A DNA stretch of 64,000 nucleotides from NCBI RefSeq assembly GCF_000429125.1, contig NZ_AUBG01000014.1:124001-188000 (forward strand), written 5' to 3'. The stretch is from Aequorivita capsosiphonis DSM 23843. Its GTDB lineage: Bacteria; Bacteroidota; Bacteroidia; Flavobacteriales; Flavobacteriaceae. A program made the position numbers and the translations under genes. The notes under the pieces are model-generated. The model ran no database searches, was not told the DNA's origin, and saw only the letters and a list, made by a program, of their open reading frames with translations. Positions 1 through 17,868 of this stretch are shown in pieces (the stretch's first letter is position 1; every line of letters starts with the position of its first letter).

Positions 1-573
1 CGCAAAAAAGGAGTAATACGTATTCATATAGGCGAGTAAATAGTCATCCCCATTTCCATCAATAGAAATCGTCTCTATTTTCCATAATTCCGCATCAAAA
101 ATAATAAAGCTTCTCCAAAGGTTAAAGGTGCCTCCGTTATTGGTACTGCGATATACAAGTAAATTTGCATCACCATTGGTATCATTTTCAATAACACTTA
201 TATAGATTATACCTTCAATTGTTACACTCATATCAAATCCGTCAATGATACCTTCATGAACCATCTTGTCCGTATCCCAATATTCTGGAGATCTTGACTC
301 TTCATAACTCCCCTCAACTACTGTCGGTGCTATTATTGGAGTAAGTGGACGGTACAGTGCTGCCATGCGTGGATCTACTTCCTGCCAGGCATATTTAATG
401 GCAAGCCGATTGCTATTAATCTCGGCAGCGGTACCAGTGTTTTCCAATTGCTTGGCCTGTTCATAAAGAGCCTTGAGTTCTGGAGTCACCACTTGGTTTC
501 CAGTGGAATTTATTTGTGACATCCCTTTAAGGATACAAAGTGTACACATTAGTAAAGTAATTACATTTTTCAT
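1..573 (-). CDS. Secreted beta-propeller protein, paralog of the next gene (partial, 3' end outside window)
   Basis: The 191 codons present start at ATG 573 and run off the left edge. The N-terminus (MKNVITLLMCTLCILKGMSQ) is a signal peptide nearly identical to that of the neighbouring 857-2560 gene. The mature part matches that neighbour almost block for block: PELKALYEQAKQLE, AAEINSNRLAIK, ESRSPEYWDTDK, then a BNR/Asp-box-like strand (YRSTNNGGTF). I infer an extracellular beta-propeller protein. The T9SS tail expected from the paralog is not in the window. The gene has its own promoter and putative LytTR site at 710-782, so the duplication included the control region. Function unknown. Confidence 0.85.
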   Translation of the reverse strand, partial: MKNVITLLMCTLCILKGMSQINSTGNQVVTPELKALYEQAKQLENTGTAAEINSNRLAIKYAWQEVDPRMAALYRPLTPIIAPTVVEGSYEESRSPEYWDTDKMVHEGIIDGFDMSVTIEGIIYISVIENDTNGDANLLVYRSTNNGGTFNLWRSFIIFDAELWKIETISIDGNGDDYLLAYMNTYYSFFA

Positions 574-709
574 GATTTTGTGTTTTTAAAATTAATTTTC
601 GTTCGTTTAAATAATTGAGGAGTAATTAATAAGGAATTGAAAATAATCTTAATCGGTAACTAGACATTTTTTAAACTATATGTTATTTAGGCTTTATAAG
701 CCTGCAAAA

Positions 710-782
710 CAAACATATAAGAAAGAAACCTACTACGAAACATACAATTAGAATTCGGTTAGCATGAATTAGTATTCAGTAA
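710..782 (-). promoter_or_regulatory. Promoter with two 21-bp-spaced direct repeats (site A, putative LytTR box)
   Basis: Read on the minus strand, two 14-mers lie at 782-769 (TTACTGAATACTAA) and 761-748 (TAACCGAATTCTAA), exactly 21 bp apart. Seven bases later comes TTTC (740-737), then 19 bases, then the Bacteroidota -7 box TATGTTTG (717-710). The start codon is at 573, giving a leader of about 130 nt. The spacing is the same as at sites B, D and E. Binding by the LytTR protein encoded at 4893-5651 is inferred. Confidence 0.65.
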
Positions 783-798
783 GAAAGAAGCAATTTAT

Positions 799-836
799 AA
801 AGAAAGGAGCCGCAGTTAAGCAGCTCCATTTCTTTA
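799..836 (-). terminator. Hairpin terminator of the 857-2560 gene
   Basis: The AAAGAAA and GGAGC arms at 799-810 pair with GCTCC and TTTCTTT at 823-836, with one or two mismatches. The hairpin lies about 20 bases past the stop codon of the minus-strand gene and separates it from the upstream region of the truncated paralog. Confidence 0.6.
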
Positions 837-856
837 CTAATCAAACAATCATTCTT

Positions 857-2560
857 CTATTTTTTAATGATTTTATAAGTTCCTAATTGACCATCTACTT
901 TAACTTTCATCACATAAACACCCGGGGCAAGTGATGAAACATTGATGGATGGACTTTTTTGTTCTGGTGAAATCTGCATCACCTCCTGCCCAAGCAAGGA
1001 ATAGATAGAAATATTCTCAACTTTGTTTTCCGAAGCAATATTTAAAGTTTCTCTTACAGGGTTTGGATAAAAAGTAAAACCTTCCAATAGGTTCTCTTCT
1101 ATACCCACCAAATCGGTCTTTGCATCAAAGTATAGATTATACCCGTAAGAACCGGCGCTACTAGACCCTGCGAATGCCATACAAGGCAAACCGTCTCCTG
1201 TTTCAGCAATTGCTGCGGGAAAGCCTGCATAAACATCTTTGTCAGTATCTGCCACAGGTTCCAATGGGTCAAAGTCATTTCCATTGTATGTAAGTGACCT
1301 ATTGGCATTATTTTCAGAGCCATCAATATTTTCACGAATATAAGATGTACGAATGGTTTCAACACCACCTACTCTTCGTATCCAAGAATCAGGTTTAACT
1401 ATGTTCCAATCACCTCCGCCGCCAGCGGAATAAGAAGTAAACTCAGCAAAATTTCCACTATTTACACGTTTATAACCTTTTGCGTTATAATGACCTGTAG
1501 ATCCAGCATCTCTGCTGGATGTAAAAATAATAACATTATCTTCTGATGGAGTATTTCTAGCAGCCCGGATGGTTGGGTTGCGAACTTCAATATCCGTTCC
1601 ATAGGTCACATATTCGGCCAGGCTTCCCCATGAGCCGGGATCATTATAGTCAGTGTTTGGACGGGCATATAAATTTCCACTACCAAGCCCAAGATAAGTG
1701 GTGTAACACATACCCAGCCTACCGTAAGCAAAGGCAATTTGACCTAAGTTGGCTCCGGGAACTGGTGTTTCATCGACCCAGTCAAACCCATAGCTTCCTG
1801 ATGTGCTTCTCGCAGAATAAATTTTTGGAGAAGCGGACTCTTTTGTGTAAATAGCGTAAACTCGGGTTGCATTTGTGTTTCCGGGCCAATCACGGTCCAA
1901 GCTGAATTCGGTTACATCGTTGGCTATTCCCTCTGATTCAAAATCGCCAGTGGCCATATTAATTCGAATTCCAAAAAACGATGTATCGGTATTCATATAG
2001 GCTATCAGATACTCGTTGCCGGTACCATCAAAGGAAACTACCTGCATTTTTTGAACCTCAACATTAGATAAATTAAGGCTTTTCCACAATACAAAAGAGT
2101 TGCCTCCGTCGGTGGAGCGATAAACATAGAGGCTGGAATCACTCCCAGTTCCAGTGAATCGTTCAATGGCTGCAACATAGATGTCTCCATCAGCAGTAAC
2201 ATCCATATCTACCCAATCTATATAACCTTCCCGCAACAGTTTGTCTGTATCCCAATCTTCAGGAGATCTCGACTCGTCATAATTTCCTTCAGCTATTCTG
2301 GGCACGCTAACAGGTGCCACTGGCTTGTAAAGTGCAGCCACAGCCGGATCTATTGTCTGCCAAGCGTTTTTAATGGCAAGCCGATTGGCATTAATCTCAG
2401 CTGCGCTACCAGCTTCTTCAAGTTGTTTAGCCTGTTGGTAAAGGGCATTGAGTTCTGGCGTTCTTTCAGGAATTAGCATTTCGCCTCCGGAGGATTCTGT
2501 TTGTGATAGCCCCGAAAGAACAAAAAGGGTACACATTAAAAGAGTAATTACATTTTTCAT
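857..2560 (-). CDS. Secreted BNR/beta-propeller protein with T9SS sorting domain
   Basis: 567 residues. I place the start at ATG 2560, where a clear signal peptide begins (MKNVITLLMCTLFVLSGLSQ). The frame stays open to 2680, but those extra 40 codons are not signal-like and lie within the leader. After a helical stretch (about 30-70) comes a beta-propeller-like body with an Asp-box motif (RSTDGGNSF) and another putative blade. The last roughly 75 residues form a type A T9SS sorting domain (FYPNPVRETLNI, then SIYSLLGQEV, then GVYVMKVKVDG). The product is therefore probably exported by the Sec and T9SS routes to the surface or medium. It is a tandem paralog of the truncated gene at 1-573. Its transcription starts near the divergent sensor kinase gene, and the intergenic region holds two putative LytTR sites. 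Ligand or enzymatic activity unknown. Confidence 0.85.
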   Translation of the reverse strand: MKNVITLLMCTLFVLSGLSQTESSGGEMLIPERTPELNALYQQAKQLEEAGSAAEINANRLAIKNAWQTIDPAVAALYKPVAPVSVPRIAEGNYDESRSPEDWDTDKLLREGYIDWVDMDVTADGDIYVAAIERFTGTGSDSSLYVYRSTDGGNSFVLWKSLNLSNVEVQKMQVVSFDGTGNEYLIAYMNTDTSFFGIRINMATGDFESEGIANDVTEFSLDRDWPGNTNATRVYAIYTKESASPKIYSARSTSGSYGFDWVDETPVPGANLGQIAFAYGRLGMCYTTYLGLGSGNLYARPNTDYNDPGSWGSLAEYVTYGTDIEVRNPTIRAARNTPSEDNVIIFTSSRDAGSTGHYNAKGYKRVNSGNFAEFTSYSAGGGGDWNIVKPDSWIRRVGGVETIRTSYIRENIDGSENNANRSLTYNGNDFDPLEPVADTDKDVYAGFPAAIAETGDGLPCMAFAGSSSAGSYGYNLYFDAKTDLVGIEENLLEGFTFYPNPVRETLNIASENKVENISIYSLLGQEVMQISPEQKSPSINVSSLAPGVYVMKVKVDGQLGTYKIIKK

Positions 2561-2703
2561 GATTTTGTGATTTTTTATTGTTAAATTAATTTTTGTTCGC
2601 TGAAATAATTGAGGAGTTATTAATAAGGAATTGAAAACAATCTCAACCGTTGAAAACACATCTGTTGAAATGCATCTCAATTATGCATTATGGAACTGGA
2701 AGA

Positions 2704-2776
2704 CAAACATATAGTGAAGAACTCTAATCTGAAACCCCCACTTAGAATTCGGACGGTTTGGATTAGAATTCAGTAA
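2704..2776 (-). promoter_or_regulatory. Promoter with two 21-bp-spaced direct repeats (site B, putative LytTR box)
   Basis: Minus-strand repeats lie at 2776-2763 (TTACTGAATTCTAA) and 2755-2742 (CGTCCGAATTCTAA), 21 bp apart. They are followed after 7 bases by TTTC (2734-2731), then 19 bases and TATGTTTG (2711-2704). Layout and distances are identical to site A, and the start codon is 144 bp downstream. This promoter drives the 857-2560 gene. Confidence 0.65.
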
Positions 2777-2788
2777 TAAAGAAGGAAA

Positions 2789-2860
2789 CTACCGAATACT
2801 AACTAAAAGTAGCCAAATTCTAAATAGGTCTAATGAATCCCAGATAGATTAGTATTTTAG
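2789..2860 (+). promoter_or_regulatory. Putative promoter of the sensor kinase with the same direct repeats (site C)
   Basis: The repeats are CTACCGAATACTAA (2789-2802) and TAGCCAAATTCTAA (2810-2823), 21 bp apart. At the expected distance lies TATTTTAG (2853-2860), one mismatch from TANNTTTG; no good -33 element is visible. The box ends only 7 bases before the kinase ATG, so the mRNA would be nearly leaderless. This suggests the two-component system controls its own genes. The 307-bp region 2561-2867 holds nothing else except site B. Confidence 0.5.
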
Positions 2861-2867
2861 TAAACTC

Positions 2868-4889
2868 ATGAGGGTTTCAATTATAATAGTAATTTATTTT
2901 CTAACCAGTTTGACACCATTAAAAGGTCAGATTGTGGCTGATTCCATTAATTACAATCTTGCCTTACTAAACAATAAAGAAGTTCAAGCACTTCGAACGA
3001 GCCCAGAATCTACTTTTGAAGAGATTCAAAAACACACCGATTGGAAATCCTACAACACTAACTATACACCTACTCCAGAATCCACGATTTGGCTAAAATT
3101 TAAAATTGAAAATCAATCCCGAGATACAGTCCACAGCTTTTTATATAGTAGAAACCACTATACCACCATTTATCAACAAAAAAAATCAGGGTTTGAAAAG
3201 TTTAAAAACGGCTTTTATGTTCCGTTGTCACAGCGTGCCAATAAGTCTATAAATTATTTTACACCATTAAGTCTTGCGCCTAATCAACAATCAGAATTAT
3301 ATGTAAGGTTAAAAGTTCTTCAAATTTTGGGCGAACAGAGTGTTCCTGCATTGTACTCAGAAAAAGGATATTTTAAGCATTTGCGGAGTGACTATGAATA
3401 CGAAAAGAACGCTATAGCTTTTATAAGTTTCTATCTCATATCGCTCATAACCATTATGGTTTTTGCAGTCGTGTTCTGGTTCACCTTGGTTAAAAGACTC
3501 TATGTGTATTATTTGGGATATTTATTTTTCCAACTTATCTATGGTTTTATTGTTCTTGGAAGAACTTTAGCCCCAGCAGGTAATATCACTCAACATATTC
3601 CAAAATTAGCCGAAGATCTTTTTGAACCGGCACAGTTTGCCTTTATTGGATTTTATGTTTTTTTCATTCTAAATTTGATTTCAGTAAAAAAATATGATAA
3701 ATTATTGGCTCAGATTCTGAAATATTTAGGCTTTACCTGCTTTTTATACGCCATTTTTCGGTTTGTTTTCAGTCACTATTTCTATAATCCAGAACTCACT
3801 TCTATTTTATTCAACACAATCAGGATCATTATTCTTCCCATAAATTTTATTTTGATTTTTTGGGTAATTTATAAAGTAAAACACCCATTATTAATCTATT
3901 TTATTATTGGACAATCTTTCTTTTTTATTGGTGCATTGATAGCCTCCCTTATTGGTTCCAATATTCTAGAAGCTTACAGTATGCTGCACTTTAGCCAGTC
4001 AGCAAATATTATATTTCAAATAGGATTGCTGGCAGAGGTTTATTGTTTTTCACTTGCACTGGGTAAAAATGTTTTTATACTTCGAAAAGAAAAAAATAAG
4101 ACCACTGATGCATTAATCGCACAATTAAAGGAGAACCAGCTTTTGCAAATAACAATGAATCACGAACTCGACGAAAAGGTGAATAAAAAGACCGAAGAGC
4201 TCATCCAGCTATATACAGAATTAGAAAAAGAAAGAGAGCAAAAAATAAAAGACGATTTTGAACAACGGATCAAAGAAATCGAAATGATTGCCTTAAGGTC
4301 ACAAATGAATCCACACTTTATTTTTAATAGTCTGACCGCTATAAAATTCTTGATTATGGATTCTAGAAATGAATATGCCATTGATTACCTCGACGATTTT
4401 TCAAGTCTGCTTCGAGGCATACTTCAAAACAGTAATCGGAAGAAAATTACCGTAGAGGAAGAGCTCGAAATACTGGAGCTCTACCTATCTTTAGAAAAAA
4501 ATCGTATGGGGGAAGAATTTATTTACGATATTCAATGCACATCTAAAGAAACGTTATCACAATATGAAATACCACCATTACTTTTGCAACCTATTGTGGA
4601 AAATGCTATTTGGCACGGTTTGCATCCAAGTTTAAAAGCGGGGAAAAAACTGACCGTTATCTTTGATACTACAGATAATCTAAAAATAATCATTGAAGAT
4701 AATGGCGTTGGCAGAAAGGAAAGCGCGAAAAGCAAAAAATTGCACGATTCTATGGGAACAAAAATTGTCCATGATCGATTAACGCTTTTCAACCACCTCA
4801 ACGCCCCCTTTATTCGTCTAAAAACGATCGACCTTGAAGAAGACGGCAAGGCTATAGGAACGAGAATAACACTAACCTATCAAAACTAA
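2868..4889 (+). CDS. LytS-type sensor histidine kinase with 7TMR-DISM sensor
   Basis: 673 residues. The signal peptide is followed by an extracellular domain (about 25-175) resembling 7TMR-DISMED2, which often has a carbohydrate-binding-like jelly-roll fold. Seven hydrophobic segments follow (about 185-405, 7TMR-DISM), then a coiled coil rich in Glu and Lys (about 420-470) and a His_kinase domain of the LytS family. The phosphoacceptor motif is MNPHFIFNSL, with His483. The ATPase N box is LLQPIVENAIWHG and the G1 box is IEDNGVGR. It sits in the inner membrane and should phosphorylate the regulator encoded 3 bp downstream. The signal sensed is unknown. Confidence 0.9.
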   Translation: MRVSIIIVIYFLTSLTPLKGQIVADSINYNLALLNNKEVQALRTSPESTFEEIQKHTDWKSYNTNYTPTPESTIWLKFKIENQSRDTVHSFLYSRNHYTTIYQQKKSGFEKFKNGFYVPLSQRANKSINYFTPLSLAPNQQSELYVRLKVLQILGEQSVPALYSEKGYFKHLRSDYEYEKNAIAFISFYLISLITIMVFAVVFWFTLVKRLYVYYLGYLFFQLIYGFIVLGRTLAPAGNITQHIPKLAEDLFEPAQFAFIGFYVFFILNLISVKKYDKLLAQILKYLGFTCFLYAIFRFVFSHYFYNPELTSILFNTIRIIILPINFILIFWVIYKVKHPLLIYFIIGQSFFFIGALIASLIGSNILEAYSMLHFSQSANIIFQIGLLAEVYCFSLALGKNVFILRKEKNKTTDALIAQLKENQLLQITMNHELDEKVNKKTEELIQLYTELEKEREQKIKDDFEQRIKEIEMIALRSQMNPHFIFNSLTAIKFLIMDSRNEYAIDYLDDFSSLLRGILQNSNRKKITVEEELEILELYLSLEKNRMGEEFIYDIQCTSKETLSQYEIPPLLLQPIVENAIWHGLHPSLKAGKKLTVIFDTTDNLKIIIEDNGVGRKESAKSKKLHDSMGTKIVHDRLTLFNHLNAPFIRLKTIDLEEDGKAIGTRITLTYQN

Positions 4890-4892
4890 ATT

Positions 4893-5651
4893 ATGATAAA
4901 AGTAATTATAATTGACGACGAAACCCACTGCACAAACGTGTTACAGAATTTAATTGAAAAAGCACATTCAGACTATACCGTTACTGGGGTTTTCACCAAT
5001 CCACTGCAAGGGCTGGAGTTTATCAAGAAGAATCCACCAGACTTGTTATTTCTAGATATTGAAATGCCAAACCTCAATGGGTTTATGTTGTTGGACAACC
5101 TACTTCCAATAGATTTTGATGTTATTTTCACAACAGCCTATGATCAATATGCTATCAAAGCATTTCGCTATAGTGCCATTAATTATTTACTAAAACCCAT
5201 AACCGAGAAAAGCATCGTAAAAGCATTATCAAGCTGGGAAAAACGACGTAAAAAAACCAGTGCCAAACAATGGGAGATGTTGCAGGATCAGTTAAAAGAT
5301 GAAAAGAAAGAGTGTTCCCAAATAGCGTTGCCCACGGGAATTGGCTATCAAATTGTAGAAATCGAAAATATCGTGCGGTGTCAGTCCGACAGTAATTACA
5401 CTAACATTTTCTGTAAAGATGATAACAAAATTTTAATAAGCCGGACTTTAAAGGATATAGAGGAGCTTTTAAAAGATCACGGTTTTTTAAGGGTACACCA
5501 GTCGCATTTAATAAACCCACAATTCGTAAAAGGGATATTAAAATACGATGGTGGAAGTCTTATTATGAACAATAATGCAGAGGTTCCCGTTTCCAGACAG
5601 AAAGCAAAACAGATAAACAAAATTTTAGAAACGATGCTTCGGTTTAAGTAG
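4893..5651 (+). CDS. LytTR-family response regulator
   Basis: 252 residues. The receiver domain (1-120) has acidic residues Asp8 and Asp9, phosphoacceptor Asp55 in FLDIEMP, and the conserved Lys in YLLKPI. The C-terminal LytTR DNA-binding domain (about 145-250) shows the family pattern IVRCQSDSNYT, then LLKDHGFLRVHQSHLIN, then VPVSRQKAK. It is a full-length cytoplasmic transcription factor in an operon with the kinase at 2868-4889. LytTR proteins bind two direct repeats on one face of the helix about two turns apart. Exactly such repeats occur at five upstream sites in this region (sites A to E), and I infer that these are its targets. Confidence 0.92.
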   Translation: MIKVIIIDDETHCTNVLQNLIEKAHSDYTVTGVFTNPLQGLEFIKKNPPDLLFLDIEMPNLNGFMLLDNLLPIDFDVIFTTAYDQYAIKAFRYSAINYLLKPITEKSIVKALSSWEKRRKKTSAKQWEMLQDQLKDEKKECSQIALPTGIGYQIVEIENIVRCQSDSNYTNIFCKDDNKILISRTLKDIEELLKDHGFLRVHQSHLINPQFVKGILKYDGGSLIMNNNAEVPVSRQKAKQINKILETMLRFK

Positions 5652-5679
5652 CTAAGAGATAGCATGGAAACCGGAAGTT

Positions 5680-5772
5680 AACTTTGACAAAGTTTTCATA
5701 TGCTTCCAGAAGCTATCATACATAATAAAATGTGATCTATTATAAAACAAACGGAGCAACTTTGTCAAAGTT
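5680..5772. repeat. Pair of 15-bp palindromes, each the reverse complement of the other
   Basis: AACTTTGACAAAGTT at 5680-5694 and AACTTTGTCAAAGTT at 5758-5772 are each perfect dyads around a single central base. They are reverse complements of each other, with 63 bp between them. This could be the two ends of a small REP-like or MITE-like element, or two operator sites. Confidence 0.55.
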
Positions 5773-5796
5773 GGGAGCTGTCTGCGTTTTCAAAAG

Positions 5797-5963
5797 TTTA
5801 CGAGCGAAACCCCAGGAACGCGAGCGACGGGAATTTTGGACTATTATTCATGAATTTTTGGTTTATTTTTTATTTCCAAATTACTTCGAGAACTAACTTC
5901 CAAAAATAGACGAGATAAAGGTTTGCGAGTGAAATCTAAGACAAGCGAGCGACTTGGTTCTTG
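5797..5963. repeat. Degenerate 42-bp direct repeat
   Basis: The stretch beginning GTTTACGAGCGAAA (5797) and the one beginning GTTTGCGAGTGAAA (5921) align without gaps over about 42 bases. Each contains an AAGCGAGCGAC or AACGCGAGCGAC core. No coding potential is seen. Confidence 0.5.
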
Positions 5964-5970
5964 TATCGAG

Positions 5971-6043
5971 CAACCTAATTCTAAACCATAGCTACCAAAT
6001 ACTAAATAGCTATTGTAACCTTACTACTAGATGAATAGGTTTG
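5971..6043 (+). promoter_or_regulatory. Promoter with two 21-bp-spaced direct repeats (site D, putative LytTR box)
   Basis: Repeats CAACCTAATTCTAA (5971-5984) and CTACCAAATACTAA (5992-6005) are 21 bp apart. Seven bases later is TTG (6013-6015), then 20 bases and TAGGTTTG (6036-6043), a textbook Bacteroidota promoter. The start codon is at 6109, giving a leader of about 60 nt. Confidence 0.7.
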
Positions 6044-6108
6044 TATTTAATATTCTCCCTTCCCATTAGTTTAAGATTAAAACACTTTAACTCAAAACTC
6101 ATTTAAAT

Positions 6109-7086
6109 ATGAAAACAATTCAACTAAAATCTAAAACACTATTGGATTTACTGCTGATGAGTACATTGTTTTTTAGTAGTACGCCTTCTGTTGCGCAGAG
6201 CCTAGAAGGAAAATGGAATATAGCTCAAGTAGATACCAGGCATTCTAAAGTGATAGAATTTACCAAAGACAGTGCGATATTCTATGAATTTGACAAACGT
6301 CAGGCGGCATATCCTTACCATGTCGAAGGTAATCGCTTAGTTGTCGACACTGCTTCATTGGGAGCGTTTGAGTTTGTAAATCCCCATCGGTTGCGGATAA
6401 AACCAGATCAGGAAACCGAGTCTATTGATCTTGTCCAGTTAAAACCCACAAAAACGAACTTAACAAGAGCTGAAATAGAGCAATTGAATTTCGAAATAAC
6501 TAAAGATAACACGTTCCCGGTAAATCTTGATGGCGTAGAAGATGAATCTGGCAAAACAATCCAGTTGGAGAAAATAGACTCTACCTACTTTCTCTCCTTT
6601 TATCACAAAGACAGAAGGATGGGAGCTATGCCCATTGAGCAGGTAACCTCTGAAAAAATTGTGGTTTATGGATTTCCGGAAAAGCCGTTTATGATTACTG
6701 GAGAGCGGGTGCTTTCCAATGAAATTACCGCCAAAAGCAGCAGTGCCTTGGCTCCTGATGGCGAGATGAGTACTGTAGAAGCACTCACAGGCAAATGGTT
6801 TTACAAAAGTATAGAAGGACGACCTCCCTTATCAGACTGTACTAAAAAGACCTATTTTCAATTTACAGAAGATTTGAGTTTTGAAATAAAAGCTTACGCC
6901 GAAAACCACAGTAACGGAAACTGTATCGCTGGCTCCAGTATAATTGGAACTTACGAGCCTGTGGGGAATGACCAAATCAAGATAATCCAAAATGGTAAAA
7001 TTGAGACTTGGAAAATTAACTCGCCTACAAAGACAATGCTTGTAGTAGAAAGAAATGGCAGTGCACTTACGCTTATAAAAGAATAG
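6109..7086 (+). CDS. Secreted protein with two lipocalin-like halves, function unknown
   Basis: 325 residues. An extended N-terminus with a hydrophobic core ends at a signal-peptidase-like site (SVAQSLEGKW), so I expect export to the periplasm or beyond. Two similar modules follow. The first opens with LEGKWNI (about 32-110) and the second with LTGKWFYKS (about 227-325). The GKW openings and alternating strands resemble the lipocalin-like domains common in Bacteroidota secreted proteins. No catalytic motif is visible. It is the first gene after the two-component system and is preceded by promoter/site D. The N-terminus (MKTIQLKSKT) resembles that of the next gene, hinting at shared ancestry of their leaders. 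Confidence 0.7.
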   Translation: MKTIQLKSKTLLDLLLMSTLFFSSTPSVAQSLEGKWNIAQVDTRHSKVIEFTKDSAIFYEFDKRQAAYPYHVEGNRLVVDTASLGAFEFVNPHRLRIKPDQETESIDLVQLKPTKTNLTRAEIEQLNFEITKDNTFPVNLDGVEDESGKTIQLEKIDSTYFLSFYHKDRRMGAMPIEQVTSEKIVVYGFPEKPFMITGERVLSNEITAKSSSALAPDGEMSTVEALTGKWFYKSIEGRPPLSDCTKKTYFQFTEDLSFEIKAYAENHSNGNCIAGSSIIGTYEPVGNDQIKIIQNGKIETWKINSPTKTMLVVERNGSALTLIKE

Positions 7087-7192
7087 GTCTCTATTTTAAT
7101 AAAACTCAATTTTGAGTCAAAAAATAAAACTACTACAAGCAAACTTTAACGTGAAAAATATTTAAAATTTCATCTTCTAAAACCCTCTAAAT

Positions 7193-7885
7193 ATGAAAAC
7201 ATCTCAACTTAAAATCAAAACCTCAAAAATAACAGTGCCTATACTAAAAACACTACTGTTCATGGTACTCATTGGCGCTGTAACTAGTTGCAATAATAAG
7301 AAGGACGCATCGGCTGACGATAAAAAAGAGAAGGTAACTGATGATAAGAAAGAGAAGGCTGCCGACGATAAAAAAAAGAAGGTAGCAGATGCAGACCACA
7401 CTTTTGATATAACCTTGGTAAAAGACTCTGAAACCATTGAATTTTCCGAGAATATATTAAATAAAGAAGGAAATGCGCTATACAACAATCAACAAATGCC
7501 AACAGGTAAAAAAGGAGATCGAAGACGTAGTATAATGATGACCATAGGGAAGGATTACAACCGTGGCGAAGCTGGTGTTTTTGGTCTTTTTGTAGTGAAT
7601 GAAGATTTTAAACCTCTAAGCGATATTAATGGTTCAGAAAAACAAGTATCCAGTTTAACTATACGGCCCGAAAAGGACGGCGATTGGTATAGTGCCGTTT
7701 CTGGAACCTTAACTTTTTCAGACCTAAAATTTGTCTTGCCCACACCAAATCTGGGTGGAGCCTGCTTTAAACTCAGCTTTGAAGGTGATTTTAAAAAGAA
7801 CGATAACAAGAAAGATATTTATCAGGGTTCGGGTACGATTGTTCTCAGCCCTAAAAGAGCTATGGGTGTTTATAAAGAAAAGTAG
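7193..7885 (+). CDS. Lipoprotein with Asp/Lys tandem repeats, function unknown
   Basis: 230 residues. A long N-terminal region ends in a lipobox (GAVTSC, Cys33), so the protein is probably lipid-anchored. A highly charged linker follows in which an 8-residue unit like ADDKKEKV is repeated three times (about 40-65). The remaining roughly 160 residues form a beta-rich domain (TFDITLVKDSETIEF, then KDGDWYSAVSGTLTF, then GGACFKLSFEGDF). I do not recognise a family. It lies 106 bp after the 6109 gene with no separate LytTR site, so co-transcription is possible. Confidence 0.7.
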   Translation: MKTSQLKIKTSKITVPILKTLLFMVLIGAVTSCNNKKDASADDKKEKVTDDKKEKAADDKKKKVADADHTFDITLVKDSETIEFSENILNKEGNALYNNQQMPTGKKGDRRRSIMMTIGKDYNRGEAGVFGLFVVNEDFKPLSDINGSEKQVSSLTIRPEKDGDWYSAVSGTLTFSDLKFVLPTPNLGGACFKLSFEGDFKKNDNKKDIYQGSGTIVLSPKRAMGVYKEK

Positions 7886-8265
7886 TTTGTTTCTAATTAT
7901 GAATGGCGAGCGTGAATTGTATACGGAAATCTGACAAACGAAACAAGCTTCTTGTAAAACATCAGAAAATTAAGAACTATTTAAGCCAATATGGTCACGT
8001 GTGAATATTATGGATTCGTACCACAATATTCCTGGAATTTCCAAAAACACTAAAGTAATGTGGCCTTTAGTAATAATTTACCGAAAGTGTTTATTTGCAA
8101 AGAGAATTAAGTAAAGATTTAAGATATTTTAGGAAAACCCTAGTCGCAGACCATACTGTAGTTATTAAATATATGTTGAAGATCTCAGTAAAAATAATCG
8201 AGCGAAATTCAACCTGTATCTATAAAAAGGTCATGAGTTACGAATGCTTTCTAGCTCTTTTTGAT
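7886..8265. other. Gene-free spacer
   Basis: A weak TTG-initiated frame (8095-8370) runs through the right part but overlaps promoter/site E and shows no domain or signal peptide, so I do not call it a gene. Nothing else is recognisable. Confidence 0.5.
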
Positions 8266-8338
8266 ATACCCAATTCTAAATTAAAACTACCAAATACTAA
8301 TTGGCTATTGACAGCTATTACCTTAATTAATATTTTTG
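8266..8338 (+). promoter_or_regulatory. Promoter with two 21-bp-spaced direct repeats (site E, putative LytTR box)
   Basis: Repeats ATACCCAATTCTAA (8266-8279) and CTACCAAATACTAA (8287-8300) are 21 bp apart. Seven bases later comes TTG (8308-8310), then 20 bases and TATTTTTG (8331-8338). The layout matches site D to the base. The ATG of the DUF4412 gene is at 8383. Confidence 0.7.
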
Positions 8339-8382
8339 TGTATATTATAGTCTCAATCCAAGCTATTTAAAATCAAACCATT

Positions 8383-9246
8383 ATGAAAAAAATATATCGA
8401 ATTTCACTGACAACATTACTTCTACTTCTTTTTATAGCACCCGCACAAGCGCAACGCGGTTTTATAAAACGGAAAATAAAACAGAAAGTAGAAAAGGATA
8501 TGAGAGAGAAGCATGCCGAACCACAAAGAGAAAAGGGCAAAAAAGCACTAGAGGATATTACTTATGAAAACGATACCCGCTATCCCGTCCCTGAAAATCC
8601 CGTACAAGCAACTTTGGTAATGCAAATGCAATCTTTTAAAAAGAACGGTAAATTGGATGACACCAACACTACCAAAATGATTTTTGGTAAAACCGGGGAA
8701 TGTATGATTATGAACGAAGGCGATAAAAATGAAACCCGAATGCTTTTTGATTATAAAGGAGCCGCTACCTATATGATTAACGAAAAAGAAAAAACGGCCA
8801 TGAAAATGCCCATGATTAATTTTCAGAAAATGGTAGAAAAAATGGCAAAAAGTCAAGGTGACATAGACGACAATAACGGGCAATGGGAACGTACTGAGGA
8901 ACAAAAGGAAATCAATGGCTACAACTGCCGTAAATATATATACCTTAATGCAAAAGAAGACACAAAAATGCATGCGTGGGTCACCCAGGACATCAGCCTT
9001 GATTTAAGTGGTAATCATCTTTTTGGAGGACAAATTAGGGACTTCGCTACTGAAACTGCGACCGATACTACTGTCAAGGTAGATGAAAACTTCCCTAGAG
9101 GAATGATGGTTCGCAGTATTTACTTCGATAAAAAGAGTGATAAACCAAGCATGATAACAGATATAACAACTTTTAAAAAATCTTCCGACCCAAAGTATTT
9201 CGATCTTAGCGATTATGAGATAAATGATATATTGGGCAGGTTGTAA
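8383..9246 (+). CDS. DUF4412-family secreted protein
   Basis: 287 residues. The signal peptide is classical (LLLLLFIAPAQAQ). A basic segment follows (RGFIKRKIKQKVEKD), then a beta-rich domain (about 65-287) with the pattern expected of DUF4412: repeated short Met/Lys-rich strands (MIFGKTGECMIMNEG, then TYMINEKEKTAMKMPMIN), and the sequence GYNCRKYIYLNAKEDTKMHAW. Such proteins are periplasmic or outer-membrane-associated with no known activity. Promoter/site E drives it, and four more exported or membrane proteins follow on the same strand. Confidence 0.75.
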   Translation: MKKIYRISLTTLLLLLFIAPAQAQRGFIKRKIKQKVEKDMREKHAEPQREKGKKALEDITYENDTRYPVPENPVQATLVMQMQSFKKNGKLDDTNTTKMIFGKTGECMIMNEGDKNETRMLFDYKGAATYMINEKEKTAMKMPMINFQKMVEKMAKSQGDIDDNNGQWERTEEQKEINGYNCRKYIYLNAKEDTKMHAWVTQDISLDLSGNHLFGGQIRDFATETATDTTVKVDENFPRGMMVRSIYFDKKSDKPSMITDITTFKKSSDPKYFDLSDYEINDILGRL

Positions 9247-9453
9247 ATTCCGAGAAACCGGAAGAAATTTTTTACGAAAGCTTAAAGTCTTTATCAACAC
9301 CGAATTCTTGTATTATATGCTGGTGATCTTGACAACCAATTTTAAACTATATTAATAAAAGCTCCTTTTAGAATCATATTGAAAAAAGCTTATTTGTGAT
9401 TATACAAAAAACAACTTCCCTAAGAAATACTTCATCCATAAAACCCGTTAACA

Positions 9454-10806
9454 ATGAAAACCCTAAAAAAAAATCTCAAAGCCTTAGCACTCTTTTTATT
9501 CATTGTCATGGTTTTTGCCAGTTGTCGCGATGGCAAGGAAGGTGAAGCAATAGATGATGACTCAGACTCAAATACAGAGCAGTTAAAAAATGCATCAGCT
9601 ACTGATGATGACAGCGGTGAGATAAAGTCAAAGCCGCCACAAGAAAGCAATACCTCAATTGTAGAGGAAGATAATGATGCAACAAGTCCAGATGCTATGG
9701 AAGGCAATACCGCGGCCATCACATTGGACTGCGATTATTTTAGCAAGCATCCAAATACAGTCTTAAAAGACAATCCAGAAGCTCCTGTAGATTATATTAT
9801 CCCTTGTGTGGCAAGAATTGATGGCAAACTTACCATCGAGCCAGGCGTTGTGATTGCTTTTAAACAAGGTGCAGGAATAGATTTTTATGCGAAGTCTTCC
9901 TTTAAGATGAACGGCACCGCTGAAAAACCAATCGTCCTAACCGGAAAAGAAAAAATAAAAGGATTTTGGTGGGGTGTTCGTACGGAAAGCAACAGTATAA
10001 CCAACGCTATGAGTTATGTAACCATTGATTATGCAGGTGGTGGCTTAAAAGCTGCTTTGAAAATCAATAATGAGAAAAGTAGTGTAAAGCTCGAGCATTG
10101 CACTTTTTCAAATAGTAAAGAATACGGAATGATTACCAAGCGAGGCGTCGATAAAGACGTCCATAATATTGTGATGAATAACTGCAACTTTACTAAAAAT
10201 AAAATACCAGTACACACTGATGCAAGTCGCTTAAGATTGTTTAACGGCTCCAATAAATTCTCTGGCAACGAAAAAGATTACATCCATCTGGAAGGTGGAA
10301 CCATGAGAGGTGATGCCACTTGGGCCAAATTAGACGTACCTTATTTTCTTCAAAATAATTTCACCATTAAAGAAGGTGTATTCACAGTAGCACCAGGTGC
10401 AGAGATAATAATGTCTTCCCAAAAATGGATTCACGTTTCCGAAGAGGCTTCCCTGTTAATGATCGGTACGCCAGAAGCGCCTATCAAATTTCGAGGGGAA
10501 CGTGATATTGCTGGGTTTTGGCAACAAATAAACGTGAAGTCCAGCAGCCCTTTAAATGAAATGGGGCATGTAATCATAGAAAACGCCGGCAGAACCACAA
10601 AAAAACCTAACGGTGCTGTATTTTTCGAAAGATCAAGATTCTTGAATATCCACGATGTGATTTTTCGCAATTGTTTTGAATATGGAATTACAGTCCAGGA
10701 TGCAGCACAATCCAATTTAAAATACGCCAATTTAAGTTTAGACAATACGCCAAAACTGTTTTCAGATTGGAGTGGCAAAGAAATCGTTGCTCCTGAAAAG
10801 CCTTAA
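9454..10806 (+). CDS. Lipoprotein with right-handed parallel beta-helix
   Basis: 450 residues. The lipobox is VMVFASC (Cys24). An acidic, low-complexity linker rich in Asp, Ser and Glu (about 27-85) precedes a repetitive domain. That domain has the short hydrophobic/Asn/Gly rungs of a parallel beta-helix: LTIEPGVVIAFKQGAGIDF, then SYVTIDYAGGGLKAAL, then a second half with FTIKEGVFTVAPGAEIIM and GHVIIENAGR. The two halves look like an internal duplication. Similar surface lipoproteins bind or cleave polysaccharide, but I see no catalytic signature. It lies 207 bp after the DUF4412 gene, with no clear promoter of its own. Confidence 0.75.
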   Translation: MKTLKKNLKALALFLFIVMVFASCRDGKEGEAIDDDSDSNTEQLKNASATDDDSGEIKSKPPQESNTSIVEEDNDATSPDAMEGNTAAITLDCDYFSKHPNTVLKDNPEAPVDYIIPCVARIDGKLTIEPGVVIAFKQGAGIDFYAKSSFKMNGTAEKPIVLTGKEKIKGFWWGVRTESNSITNAMSYVTIDYAGGGLKAALKINNEKSSVKLEHCTFSNSKEYGMITKRGVDKDVHNIVMNNCNFTKNKIPVHTDASRLRLFNGSNKFSGNEKDYIHLEGGTMRGDATWAKLDVPYFLQNNFTIKEGVFTVAPGAEIIMSSQKWIHVSEEASLLMIGTPEAPIKFRGERDIAGFWQQINVKSSSPLNEMGHVIIENAGRTTKKPNGAVFFERSRFLNIHDVIFRNCFEYGITVQDAAQSNLKYANLSLDNTPKLFSDWSGKEIVAPEKP

Positions 10807-10911
10807 CAGTTCGTATTGAAACAGGCTAAATCAGAAGGCTTCTTTAAAAATTTCCATTTATTACGAGAAAACAAAAAATAGAAAATTCATTTAAATTAAA
10901 ATCAATTAATC

Positions 10912-11433
10912 ATGAAAAAAGCCATTTTATATGTAGGAGCACTTTTCTTCATGCTAATATCAAATTCGGCATTTGCACAAGAAACCGCTAAGGAATCGAA
11001 AGATTCTAAGACAGAAAATCTTCAAAATATAGAGAACTCAAAAGTGAAGGTATTGGTTGATACCTCTTCTAAGAAAGTCAAGAATTCTTCGACAAAGACC
11101 TCTGCTACCAGAGCAGAAGAAAAAGGAATAGGTACGCCAGATCATTGGCATAAACCTAATAGCAAAACCTGGACTACTAGATTTTCTCAAAAGTTGACCC
11201 TTAACAATAGTGTTTTTCAAATAAAACGCAGTAAAAACGGATTTGACCTTTATGAAAAAGGCTCATCCCAAGTGTATGCCAATTTGGTGCCTACCCCAAA
11301 AGAAGGTTTATACCGCTATAATTCTTCAACTAAAAATGGTGCGGCTCATTTCGATAAAAAAGGCAACTTAATTTTAAAATATTTGGATAATGACACAGGG
11401 AAAACGAAAGAAATACAGTTTCAGTCAAATTAG
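10912..11433 (+). CDS. Small secreted protein, function unknown
   Basis: 173 residues with a good signal peptide (ISNSAFAQE). A Lys/Ser-rich low-complexity stretch follows (about 22-65), then a roughly 100-residue C-terminal domain (FSQKLTLNNSVFQIKRSKNG, then YANLVPTPKEGLYRYNSS, then GNLILKYLDNDTGKTKEIQF) that looks like a small beta-barrel or sandwich. No family recognised. It is 105 bp downstream of the beta-helix lipoprotein and probably belongs to the same transcript. Confidence 0.65.
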   Translation: MKKAILYVGALFFMLISNSAFAQETAKESKDSKTENLQNIENSKVKVLVDTSSKKVKNSSTKTSATRAEEKGIGTPDHWHKPNSKTWTTRFSQKLTLNNSVFQIKRSKNGFDLYEKGSSQVYANLVPTPKEGLYRYNSSTKNGAAHFDKKGNLILKYLDNDTGKTKEIQFQSN

Positions 11434-11502
11434 AGAATTTTCTCAGATTCTACTTTCTACTATAATATTTAAAAGCTGAAAATTCATTTATAATAAAAAA
11501 CT

Positions 11503-11874
11503 ATGGAAAACGAAACAAACACACCGACGCAAAAAACAACAGAAGAGCCTACTAGTATTATCGAGCAAGGTAAAACAATCGCAATAATTAGCTATATCAC
11601 AATCTTTGGTCTCTTGATTGCTTTTATAATGAACAACGATAAAAAAAATACATTTGCGGCATATCACATACGTCAATGCATTGGCTTGGTTTCTGTAGGT
11701 TTAGCTTCTTATATTATTGGTAAAATCCCTTTTGTAGGTTGGTTAATTTCACTTCTAGTCGGTATATTTCTTTTGGTTTTATGGATAATCGGATTAATAG
11801 CTGCAATAAACGGAGAGAAAAAACCAGTTCCTATTTTAGGTGAAAAATTTCAGGAGTGGTTTAAAGGGATATGA
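11503..11874 (+). CDS. DUF4870-like small membrane protein
   Basis: 123 residues with a polar N-terminus and three or four hydrophobic helices (about 27-50, 60-80, 82-105). The sequence AIISYITIFGLLIAF followed by FAAYHIRQC matches the family often named DUF4870 or 'import component' in flavobacteria, where a His-Xaa-Arg-Gln motif follows the first helix. Inner-membrane location is expected; function is unknown. It ends the run of plus-strand genes that starts with the two-component system. Confidence 0.65.
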   Translation: MENETNTPTQKTTEEPTSIIEQGKTIAIISYITIFGLLIAFIMNNDKKNTFAAYHIRQCIGLVSVGLASYIIGKIPFVGWLISLLVGIFLLVLWIIGLIAAINGEKKPVPILGEKFQEWFKGI

Positions 11875-11883
11875 TATCTAGAT

Positions 11884-11946
11884 GAAATCGAAATCGAAGC
11901 CGAAATCGAAGTTGAAAATGAAGATGAAGATGAAGATGAACTAAAA
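11884..11946. repeat. Degenerate hexanucleotide tandem repeat
   Basis: About ten tandem six-base units of the form GAAATC or GAAGAT begin just after the stop codon at 11874. A shorter stretch with the same GAAATC units lies at 31383-31408. Confidence 0.7.
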
Positions 11947-12025
11947 TGCTCAACAATCTTTGAGGTTTTATATTTAAAGAAATCAATCGATATTCCTATA
12001 TTTTTCTGTAATTTATTCAGAATAG

Positions 12026-17645: not shown

Positions 17646-17656
17646 GTTTCAGTGGT

Positions 17657-17689
17657 CAGTATTCAGTATTCAGTATTCAGTATTCAGTA
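17657..17689. repeat. Tandem heptanucleotide repeat (CAGTATT) upstream of ftsY
   Basis: Four perfect CAGTATT copies (17657-17684) plus a partial fifth, with a degenerate copy before them (17650-17656). It lies in the presumed leader of ftsY. Confidence 0.85.
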
Positions 17690-17868
17690 AAATTACTCGA
17701 TTTTTTCACTTTAACAAAGTTTGATACCTTTTCAAAGCTTATTTTTCACAGTTCCCTCCCTTTTTCAGAGGATGGTAGATTTTAAATCGCCCTAAAAGGT
17801 GGTTTAAAAGACAGAAGGATCAACTTAAAACTTTATCAAAATCATTCTCTTGAAACAGTAAAATACGA

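Follow-up and report, generated by a model that had tools for sequence, protein, structure and literature searches.

Which protein acts on five promoters that each carry the same pair of short direct repeats? The question is raised by the left end of a 64-kb stretch of the 4.04-Mb genome of Aequorivita capsosiphonis DSM 23843 (genome G000), which comprises positions 124001-188000 of contig C11 and is called here the window. An earlier note, written from the letters of this window, had proposed that the five repeat pairs (sites A to E) mark the regulon of a response regulator of the LytTR family encoded beside a LytS-type sensor kinase. We found that this interpretation is very likely right and that the regulon is larger than first reported: A to E are, in all probability, the operators of the LytTR response regulator predicted at 4893..5651. 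This assignment is well supported but unproven.

All five sites were recovered where they had been reported, on the reported strands, and match with 0 mismatches the search pattern ACYNAATWCTAA-N10-CCNAATWCTAA. Each consists of two direct repeats with the half-site consensus nTACCRAATWCTAA, and the 21-bp period claimed for them holds in all five. Operator A, made of two 14-mers (748..782, minus strand), lies 5' of a propeller-like gene ending outside the window, and its -7 box TATGTTTG (710..717, minus) begins 30 bases past the operator. Operator B (2742..2776, minus; -7 box TATGTTTG at 2704..2711, minus) is the divergent partner of operator C (2789..2823, plus), with 12 bp between them. Operator C belongs to the kinase-regulator promoter, which would make it the autoregulatory site, and is followed after 29 bases by the -7-like box TATTTTAG (2853..2860, plus). 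Operators D (5971..6005) and E (8266..8300), both on the plus strand, have the -7 boxes TAGGTTTG (6036..6043, plus) and TATTTTTG (8331..8338, plus). The promoter distances were thus as first described: in A, B, D and E, 30 bases separate the operator from a TAnnTTTG box, and 7 bases separate it from the TT of the -33 element.

The earlier note had seen no other such pair in the window. With up to 3 mismatches allowed, the window holds six matches, namely A to E and one 3-mismatch match at 17656-17688, against 0.02 on average, and never more than one, in 100 shuffled windows. The sixth match was ruled out as an operator, being a 7-bp tandem array, and the claim stands for the window but not for the genome, where five more exact sites occur. 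Exact matches number ten in all: the five of the window, three at C11 119878, 121335 and 122768, just upstream of the window start, and one each on C10 and C14. The cluster therefore extends 4 kb past the window, and eight of the ten exact sites fall within 12.5 kb around the kinase. A promoter box stands behind each of the ten. Exact sites thus proved to be rare and placed before promoters; only C11:119878 is not closely followed by a plausible gene. Relaxed to 3 mismatches, the search returned 43 matches genome-wide against 7 for the reversed pattern, many of them simple repeats.

The distance to the promoter was measured on a larger collection of operator pairs. These were selected solely by their operator score, computed with a matrix built on the genome's own ten sites (both halves above 6 and their sum above 20). 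The sources were the own genome, the ortholog loci of Aequorivita (16) and of other genera (15), and additional Aequorivita loci that a pattern search had turned up. The heptamer array at 17656-17688 and the paralog sites of L048 and L049 were left out and duplicate sequences removed (which removes L065). The collected set comprised 78 sites, 72 of them distinct, 26 standing before kinases and 52 elsewhere; base frequencies were drawn from the 72 distinct sites, which had themselves been found with the 21-bp period. Among the 52 non-kinase sites, TAnnTTTG starts after exactly 30 bases in 46 and after 29 in one (at 30 in 42 of 48 once the window sites are set aside), and the shorter TAnnTTT is found at 30 bases in 50, whereas 2000 rounds of shuffling the downstream letters gave 0.06 on average and never more than 2. 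The -33 TT begins 7 bases past the repeat in 52/52. In kinase promoters the box is looser, often TATTTTAG, and sits at 29 bases in 15 matches and at 30 in 6; the -33 TT is not conserved there.

One argument for the regulator comes from co-occurrence. Of 28 Aequorivita genomes, 17 carry an ortholog of the regulator (73-100% identity), and a pattern combining operator and promoter, at up to 2 mismatches, matches in these same 17 genomes and in none of the 11 others; its reversed control matches none of the 28. By arithmetic, so perfect a match would arise by chance about once in 21 million, on the assumption that genomes are independent, which they are not. In G002, G011 and G023 the sole match is the kinase promoter, and three of the 2-mismatch matches (G012:C5, G024:C22 and G026:C3) look like chance. 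The stricter operator-only pattern gave exact sites in 10 of the 17 genomes with the regulator against 0 of the 11 without. The same picture emerged from 249 Flavobacteriaceae genomes of 235 genera: the window-derived pattern matches in ten, four with sites of the type described here, designated CC-type (G000, G002, G064 and G270), and six with other LytTR-type sites, while the reversed control gave zero. The regulator ortholog (E up to 1e-80) was found in exactly the four genomes with CC-type sites and in 0 of the other 245.

At the kinase locus itself, an operator pair with a summed score above 17 lies upstream of the kinase in the own genome, in 16/16 other Aequorivita loci and in 15/15 loci of other genera, among them Marixanthomonas, Confluentibacter, Tamlana, Psychroflexus, Flagellimonas, Maribacter, Arenibacter, Xanthomarina and Gelidibacter. 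For these counts, L073 (20% identity, partial) was left out, and the six Aequorivita loci from the ortholog search were taken to be the same loci as those fetched by handle. The sites, their fixed promoter distance, their conservation and the agreement between the presence of operator and regulator were all computed directly; the sites are kept at the kinase locus in related genomes, and their presence follows the regulator gene. Together with the rarity of exact sites, this means that the LytTR-regulon reading withstood the two refuting conditions of the earlier note that can be examined by computation.

Several points weigh against this assignment. The genomes are related, so that presence counts are not independent, and the operator-plus-promoter pattern had been loosened after sites from some of the same genomes had been viewed. 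The operator alone, with 2 mismatches, matches in 26 of the 28 Aequorivita genomes, 9 of the 11 regulator-less ones included; altogether it yields 102 matches, and its reversed control 17. That search fails to discriminate because simple repeats match it: the matches in the 11 regulator-less genomes are mostly simple-repeat-like, with paralog-operator-like ones in G014 and G025. In L036, L037, L062, L063, L065, L066 and L070 the operator facing the kinase scores weakly or falls short of the threshold. In the own genome, site C11:119878 is followed for about 400 bp by no ATG-started open reading frame (ORF) of at least 60 amino acids, and C11:121335 has its box after 29 bases. Finally, the genome contains nine LytTR matches (one with internal stops), so another LytTR protein could use some of the sites, and because the operators of related regulators share the core AATTCTAA, specificity rests on few bases.

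The two genes proposed to govern the system form a compact unit, the kinase gene ending 3 bp upstream of the regulator gene. The kinase (2868..4889, plus) carries the Pfam domains 7TMR-DISMED2, 7TMR-DISM_7TM and His_kinase (PF06580, 4.2e-21, with PF07695 and PF07696), which bears out the earlier reading of a LytS kinase behind an operator. The regulator, the proposed binder of A to E (4893..5651, plus), combines Response_reg (PF00072, 1.3e-20) with LytTR (PF04397, 3.4e-19), both over the cut-off. Its predicted structure, with a mean pLDDT (predicted local distance difference test score) of 78, has ComE as best fold match, and the LytTR domain of AgrA also matches it, with a template modelling (TM) score of 0.83 by AgrA-domain length over 103 columns. 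AgrA responds to a quorum-sensing input, a difference from the present system. The LytTR consensus of Nikolskaya and Galperin (2002) is reportedly [TA][AC][CA]GTTN[AG][TG], and the half-site nTACCRAATWCTAA has no GTT at the place which that consensus sets. The missing GTT does not exclude membership of the LytTR class, since LytTR sites lack a common consensus (PMC4847170).

The geometry had been thought undescribed, and this part of the earlier note did not hold: a 21-bp period just upstream of the -35 element is the standard LytTR layout (PMC6193735, PMC4847170, PMC11347149). LytTR sites are described as two repeats of 9-11 nt, 11-13 nt apart (PMC4847170), or as paired 9-bp repeats 10-13 bp apart (PMC11347149). 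In the LytTR regulatory systems (LRS), the 9-bp repeats are mostly separated by 12 bp and tend to lie 10 bp upstream of -35; such repeats were shown to mediate positive autoregulation (PMC6193735). Read as ACCRAATWC, our half-site gives a 9-12-9 arrangement with 10 bp to the -33 element, and the layout is thus a textbook one. The five sites, with their 21-bp period, have the two direct repeats of 9-11 bp about 10-13 bp apart; all 52 non-kinase sites sit just upstream of the -35 element (here -33); by Pfam, a regulator with receiver and LytTR domains adjoins a membrane kinase of LytS type; and site C places an operator before the system's own operon, as in autoregulated LytTR loci.

Comparison with individual systems showed both likenesses and differences. 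The Streptococcus mutans LRS (HdrRM, BrsRM) and their putative relatives share the 9-12-9 repeats, often 10 bp before -35, the location at their own promoter, the positive feedback and half-sites often beginning with ACC, but they pair the LytTR regulator with an inhibitory membrane protein, whereas we find a kinase-response regulator pair and a longer half-site ending in AATWCTAA (PMC6193735). The present system was therefore rejected as a strict LRS: with its receiver domain and histidine kinase, it is LRS-like in its promoter only. The LRS-like operons of Bacteroides resemble it in their TATCTTTG-type promoters and in repeats starting with TCC or ACC upstream of a LytTR operon; they differ in that repeats and spacer are both 11 bp long (22-bp period), in a distance of 11 bp to the promoter, in sequence and in a regulator with membrane segments, and the available part of their description does not mention a wider regulon (PMC6193735). 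YpdA/YpdB of Escherichia coli, a LytS kinase with a LytTR regulator, has the same 21-bp period (GGCATTTCAT, 11 bp between, in the oligonucleotide) with a different repeat sequence (PMC4847170). In Staphylococcus aureus the LytTR domain of AgrA likewise acts on two direct repeats, upstream of the two promoters of the agr intergenic region, again of a different sequence (PMC4227749). BtsS/BtsR of E. coli also joins a kinase with a membrane-embedded sensor to a LytTR regulator; the sensor of BtsS is 5TMR_LYT plus GAF, and that of the present kinase 7TMR-DISMED2 plus 7TMR-DISM_7TM (PMC10653868). The motif sequence, the regulon, the flavobacterial core and any LytTR operator or regulon from Flavobacteriia were not found in searches of open-licence papers, in agreement with the earlier note as to motif and regulon. 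As far as searched, then, novelty lies in the sequence, in the regulon and in what may be an operator code; the geometry and the logic were already known for LytTR systems.

From these elements the following mechanism can be proposed. The membrane kinase would sense an extracellular signal through its 7TMR-DISM domains and phosphorylate the LytTR regulator, whose activity would presumably be controlled in this way. Two regulator molecules would then occupy the two repeats of A to E on one face of the helix and, from the repeat ending 7 bp before the -33 element, activate the promoter. With the kinase-regulator operon among the targets, positive feedback would be expected, and the other targets would encode secreted proteins, lipoproteins and outer-membrane proteins. 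Activation is favoured by analogy, because the position before -33 and the autoregulatory site match published activating LytTR systems. The case, which is clean, conserved across genera and directly testable, yields an operator, a promoter rule and a target list for a LytTR system of Flavobacteriia. It also links a 7TMR-DISM sensor to surface and secreted proteins, and promoter reporter fusions could serve in the search for its ligand.

Other explanations of the same sites were considered. One or more other LytTR regulators might bind the operators as well, giving the regulon several inputs, as the nine LytTR matches of the genome and the core and 21-bp period common to related operators would allow. 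We consider such sharing unlikely, since the CC-type operator with its promoter tracks the ortholog (17/17 against 0/11 in Aequorivita, 4/4 against 0/245 in the family) although other related regulators were matched in all 28 Aequorivita genomes, and since the five paralog operators described below differ at their 5' bases. That the regulator represses from these sites is improbable. Repression is known for some LytTR proteins, for example CoxC with an operator that overlaps the -35 box, while most bind upstream of -35 and activate (PMC11347149); here the repeats stop 7 bp short of the -33 element without overlap, and kinase promoters lacking a conserved -33 TT fit an activator-dependent promoter.

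It is very improbable that a different transcription factor binds the repeats and that the LytTR gene is a mere neighbour. The co-occurrence could reflect a whole cluster inherited together, and an ORF that looks Crp/Fnr-like by eye lies at L009:2545-3126, about 5 kb past the leftmost operator. Against this, the kinase-regulator pair stays constant across genera while the divergent target changes, promoter-bearing sites far from the cluster occur, among the 28 Aequorivita genomes, only in those holding the regulator, and the Pfam scan of nine proteins of window 1-12000 showed none that looks regulatory apart from the kinase and the LytTR protein. An origin of the repeats in chance matches or a dispersed repeat element has a negligible probability. 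Heptamer arrays like (ACTGAAT)n and other simple repeats do yield loose matches, but this origin was rejected on the shuffles (0.02 matches expected in the window), on the zero counts of the reversed controls in the 249-genome and operator-plus-promoter searches, and on the fixed promoter distance, to which conservation in other genera can be added. The LytTR regulator at 4893..5651 thus remains the preferred candidate for A to E.

Which genes would it control? The eight clustered sites precede the kinase-regulator genes, two propeller-like genes, two lipoprotein genes, the Lipocalin_4 gene and the gene at 8383-9246. The target of A is a secreted propeller-like protein, whose N-terminal part lies at 1..573 (minus; ORF L009:10903-12573, 556 aa, extending past the window edge), and that of B (857..2560, minus; ATG 181 bases past the operator) is a secreted propeller-like protein with a sorting tail of the type IX secretion system (T9SS; PF18962). 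As the earlier note had it, these two are paralogous in that blastp joins them, but the label of propeller was its own reading and has no Pfam support (the target of B was scanned). Operator D precedes a secreted protein with a Lipocalin_4 domain (6109..7086, plus; ATG 103 bases past the operator), which confirms by Pfam what had been called lipocalin-like; the following lipoprotein-like gene (by eye; 7193..7885, plus; an ORF with no Pfam match) is possibly on the same transcript. The target of E is a secreted protein (8383..9246, plus) known as an ORF and a protein cluster, with no Pfam family over the cut-off. It had been presented as a DUF4412 gene, a label that could not be kept: it fails to reach Pfam DUF4412, which only a gene of Confluentibacter (L058) does, and blastp does not join the two. 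This protein follows the operator in seven Aequorivita genomes, the own one included. Outside the window, the two lipoproteins of the cluster (by eye) are linked by blastp to a protein with a Beta_helix match below the cut-off, and the distant sites on C10 and C14 precede a lipoprotein (by eye, no Pfam match) and an outer-membrane beta-barrel protein.

Operators at the kinase are often back to back, as B and C are. Of 19 such pairs at kinase or kinase-like loci with both members above threshold, 18 have a gap of 11-15 bp, and the remaining one (L032) has 23 bp, about one helical turn more; the 58-bp pair of L033 is a different promoter pair. The gene opposite the kinase varies: it may be propeller-like, a beta-helix-like lipoprotein, of DUF4412 type (a Pfam match in the divergent gene of Confluentibacter, with seven further proteins joined by blastp), a lipoprotein that looks collagen-like by eye, or one related to the target on C10. 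From genus to genus it is this divergent target gene that changes, whereas the kinase-regulator pair is kept. The targets recurring in Aequorivita are the 8383-9246 protein (7 loci), beta-helix-like proteins (6), outer-membrane beta-barrel proteins (6) and propeller-like proteins (3). Psychroflexus gondwanensis has a second divergent operator pair (L061:1824 and L061:1837), between kinase-like and DUF4412-type genes, about 4 kb from the first.

The existence of related regulators raised the possibility that their operators follow a common code. Seventeen Aequorivita paralog stretches were searched, with no motif given, for repeats that agree in 10 or more of 12 bases and have a period of 19-24. 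In five (L048, L049, L083, L085 and L086) a 21-bp repeat of at least 11/12 with the AATTCTAA core was found, carrying other 5' bases, such as TCAAATTCTAA, and sitting upstream of a TPR-like kinase (by eye) and a LytTR regulator of about 35% identity; L082 and L084 have one good and one weak half-site (by eye). The remaining ten are without a core pair: repeats of a different sequence, agreeing in 10 or 11 of 12 bases, occur in L080, L087 and L089, and none in the other seven. In L080, L081, L088 and L090 little upstream sequence was covered, which makes them weak tests. Within the stretches tested, the grammar thus does not cover all LytTR proteins.

In the 249 genomes, a generic core pair gave 16 sites in 14 genomes against 2 matches of the reversed control. 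Five of the 16 belong to the own-type regulon (G000, G064 and G270). Among the other 11, six have a LytS/LytTR pair in the fetched stretch (G099, G102, G105, G122, G139 and G157) and five have no such pair there (G136, G141, G197, G203 and G242), three of these having been seen in 3-kb loci only. Ten stretches were fetched around generic core sites of other genera, with kinase types assigned by eye. A LytS-type kinase and a LytTR regulator occur in the same stretch as the site in 6 of 7 ACG-type cases (L133-L137 and L141, where the pair is on the other strand; not L140) and in 2 of 3 TC-type cases (L138 and L139; not L142), the regulators being 33-39% identical to that of the window. The promoter distance of the ACG sites from the 249-genome search is not independent evidence, since they had been selected on it. 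The subfamilies pair CC sites with the 7TMR-DISM kinase, TC sites with a TPR-like kinase and ACG sites with a kinase having a two-component-propeller-like N-terminus, the latter two by reading.

A loop near the C-terminus of the regulators reads SRQK here and SVRK or SQRK in the other groups; the DNA contacts given for AgrA include R198, N201 and S202, with a role of H200. We tentatively suggest, with somewhat less than even confidence, that flavobacterial LytTR regulators share a grammar made of the 3' core AATTCTAA, the 21-bp period and, in many cases, an equal spacing to the -7 box, in which the bases before the core would separate the subfamilies and the loop would set specificity. For the SRQK/SQRK/SVRK loop, this role is an inference from three groups of sequences. 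The subfamily comparison offers a start for a LytTR recognition code; if true, LytTR regulons in the phylum would be predictable from sequence, and the DNA code of the beta-type binding domain could be read by loop swaps.

A stretch of 285 nt lies directly behind an exact operator and its TATGTTTG box at C11:119555-119839 (L009:7555-7839, minus), about 4.2-4.4 kb upstream of the window. It forms strong hairpins (z -3.37 against shuffles) and has by eye an end like an intrinsic terminator. In G022 the operator is followed by a first hairpin that looks, by eye, nearly identical, and in G004, G009, G024 and G027 leaders with terminator-like ends were seen by eye at divergent operators. The 285-nt stretch may be a regulator-driven small RNA. 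Two results weigh against this: the terminator pattern scan listed none there, and Rfam gave no match for leader RNA in L002, L036, L047 and L012.

Some further observations concern single loci. The heptamer array (ACTGAAT)n at 17656-17690 precedes an ORF reading like FtsY, and like arrays occur on C4 and C12. A gene reading like a tyrosine recombinase (L010:4488-5756) adjoins the distant C10 operator. Finally, four imperfect half-sites with a 21-bp period lie at C15:89203-89277 (L012:6204-6278) before the gene of a large secreted protein with repeated domains; the box TATGTTTA follows this array after 30 bases, and a LytTR regulator of 33% identity is encoded about 8 kb off on the same contig.

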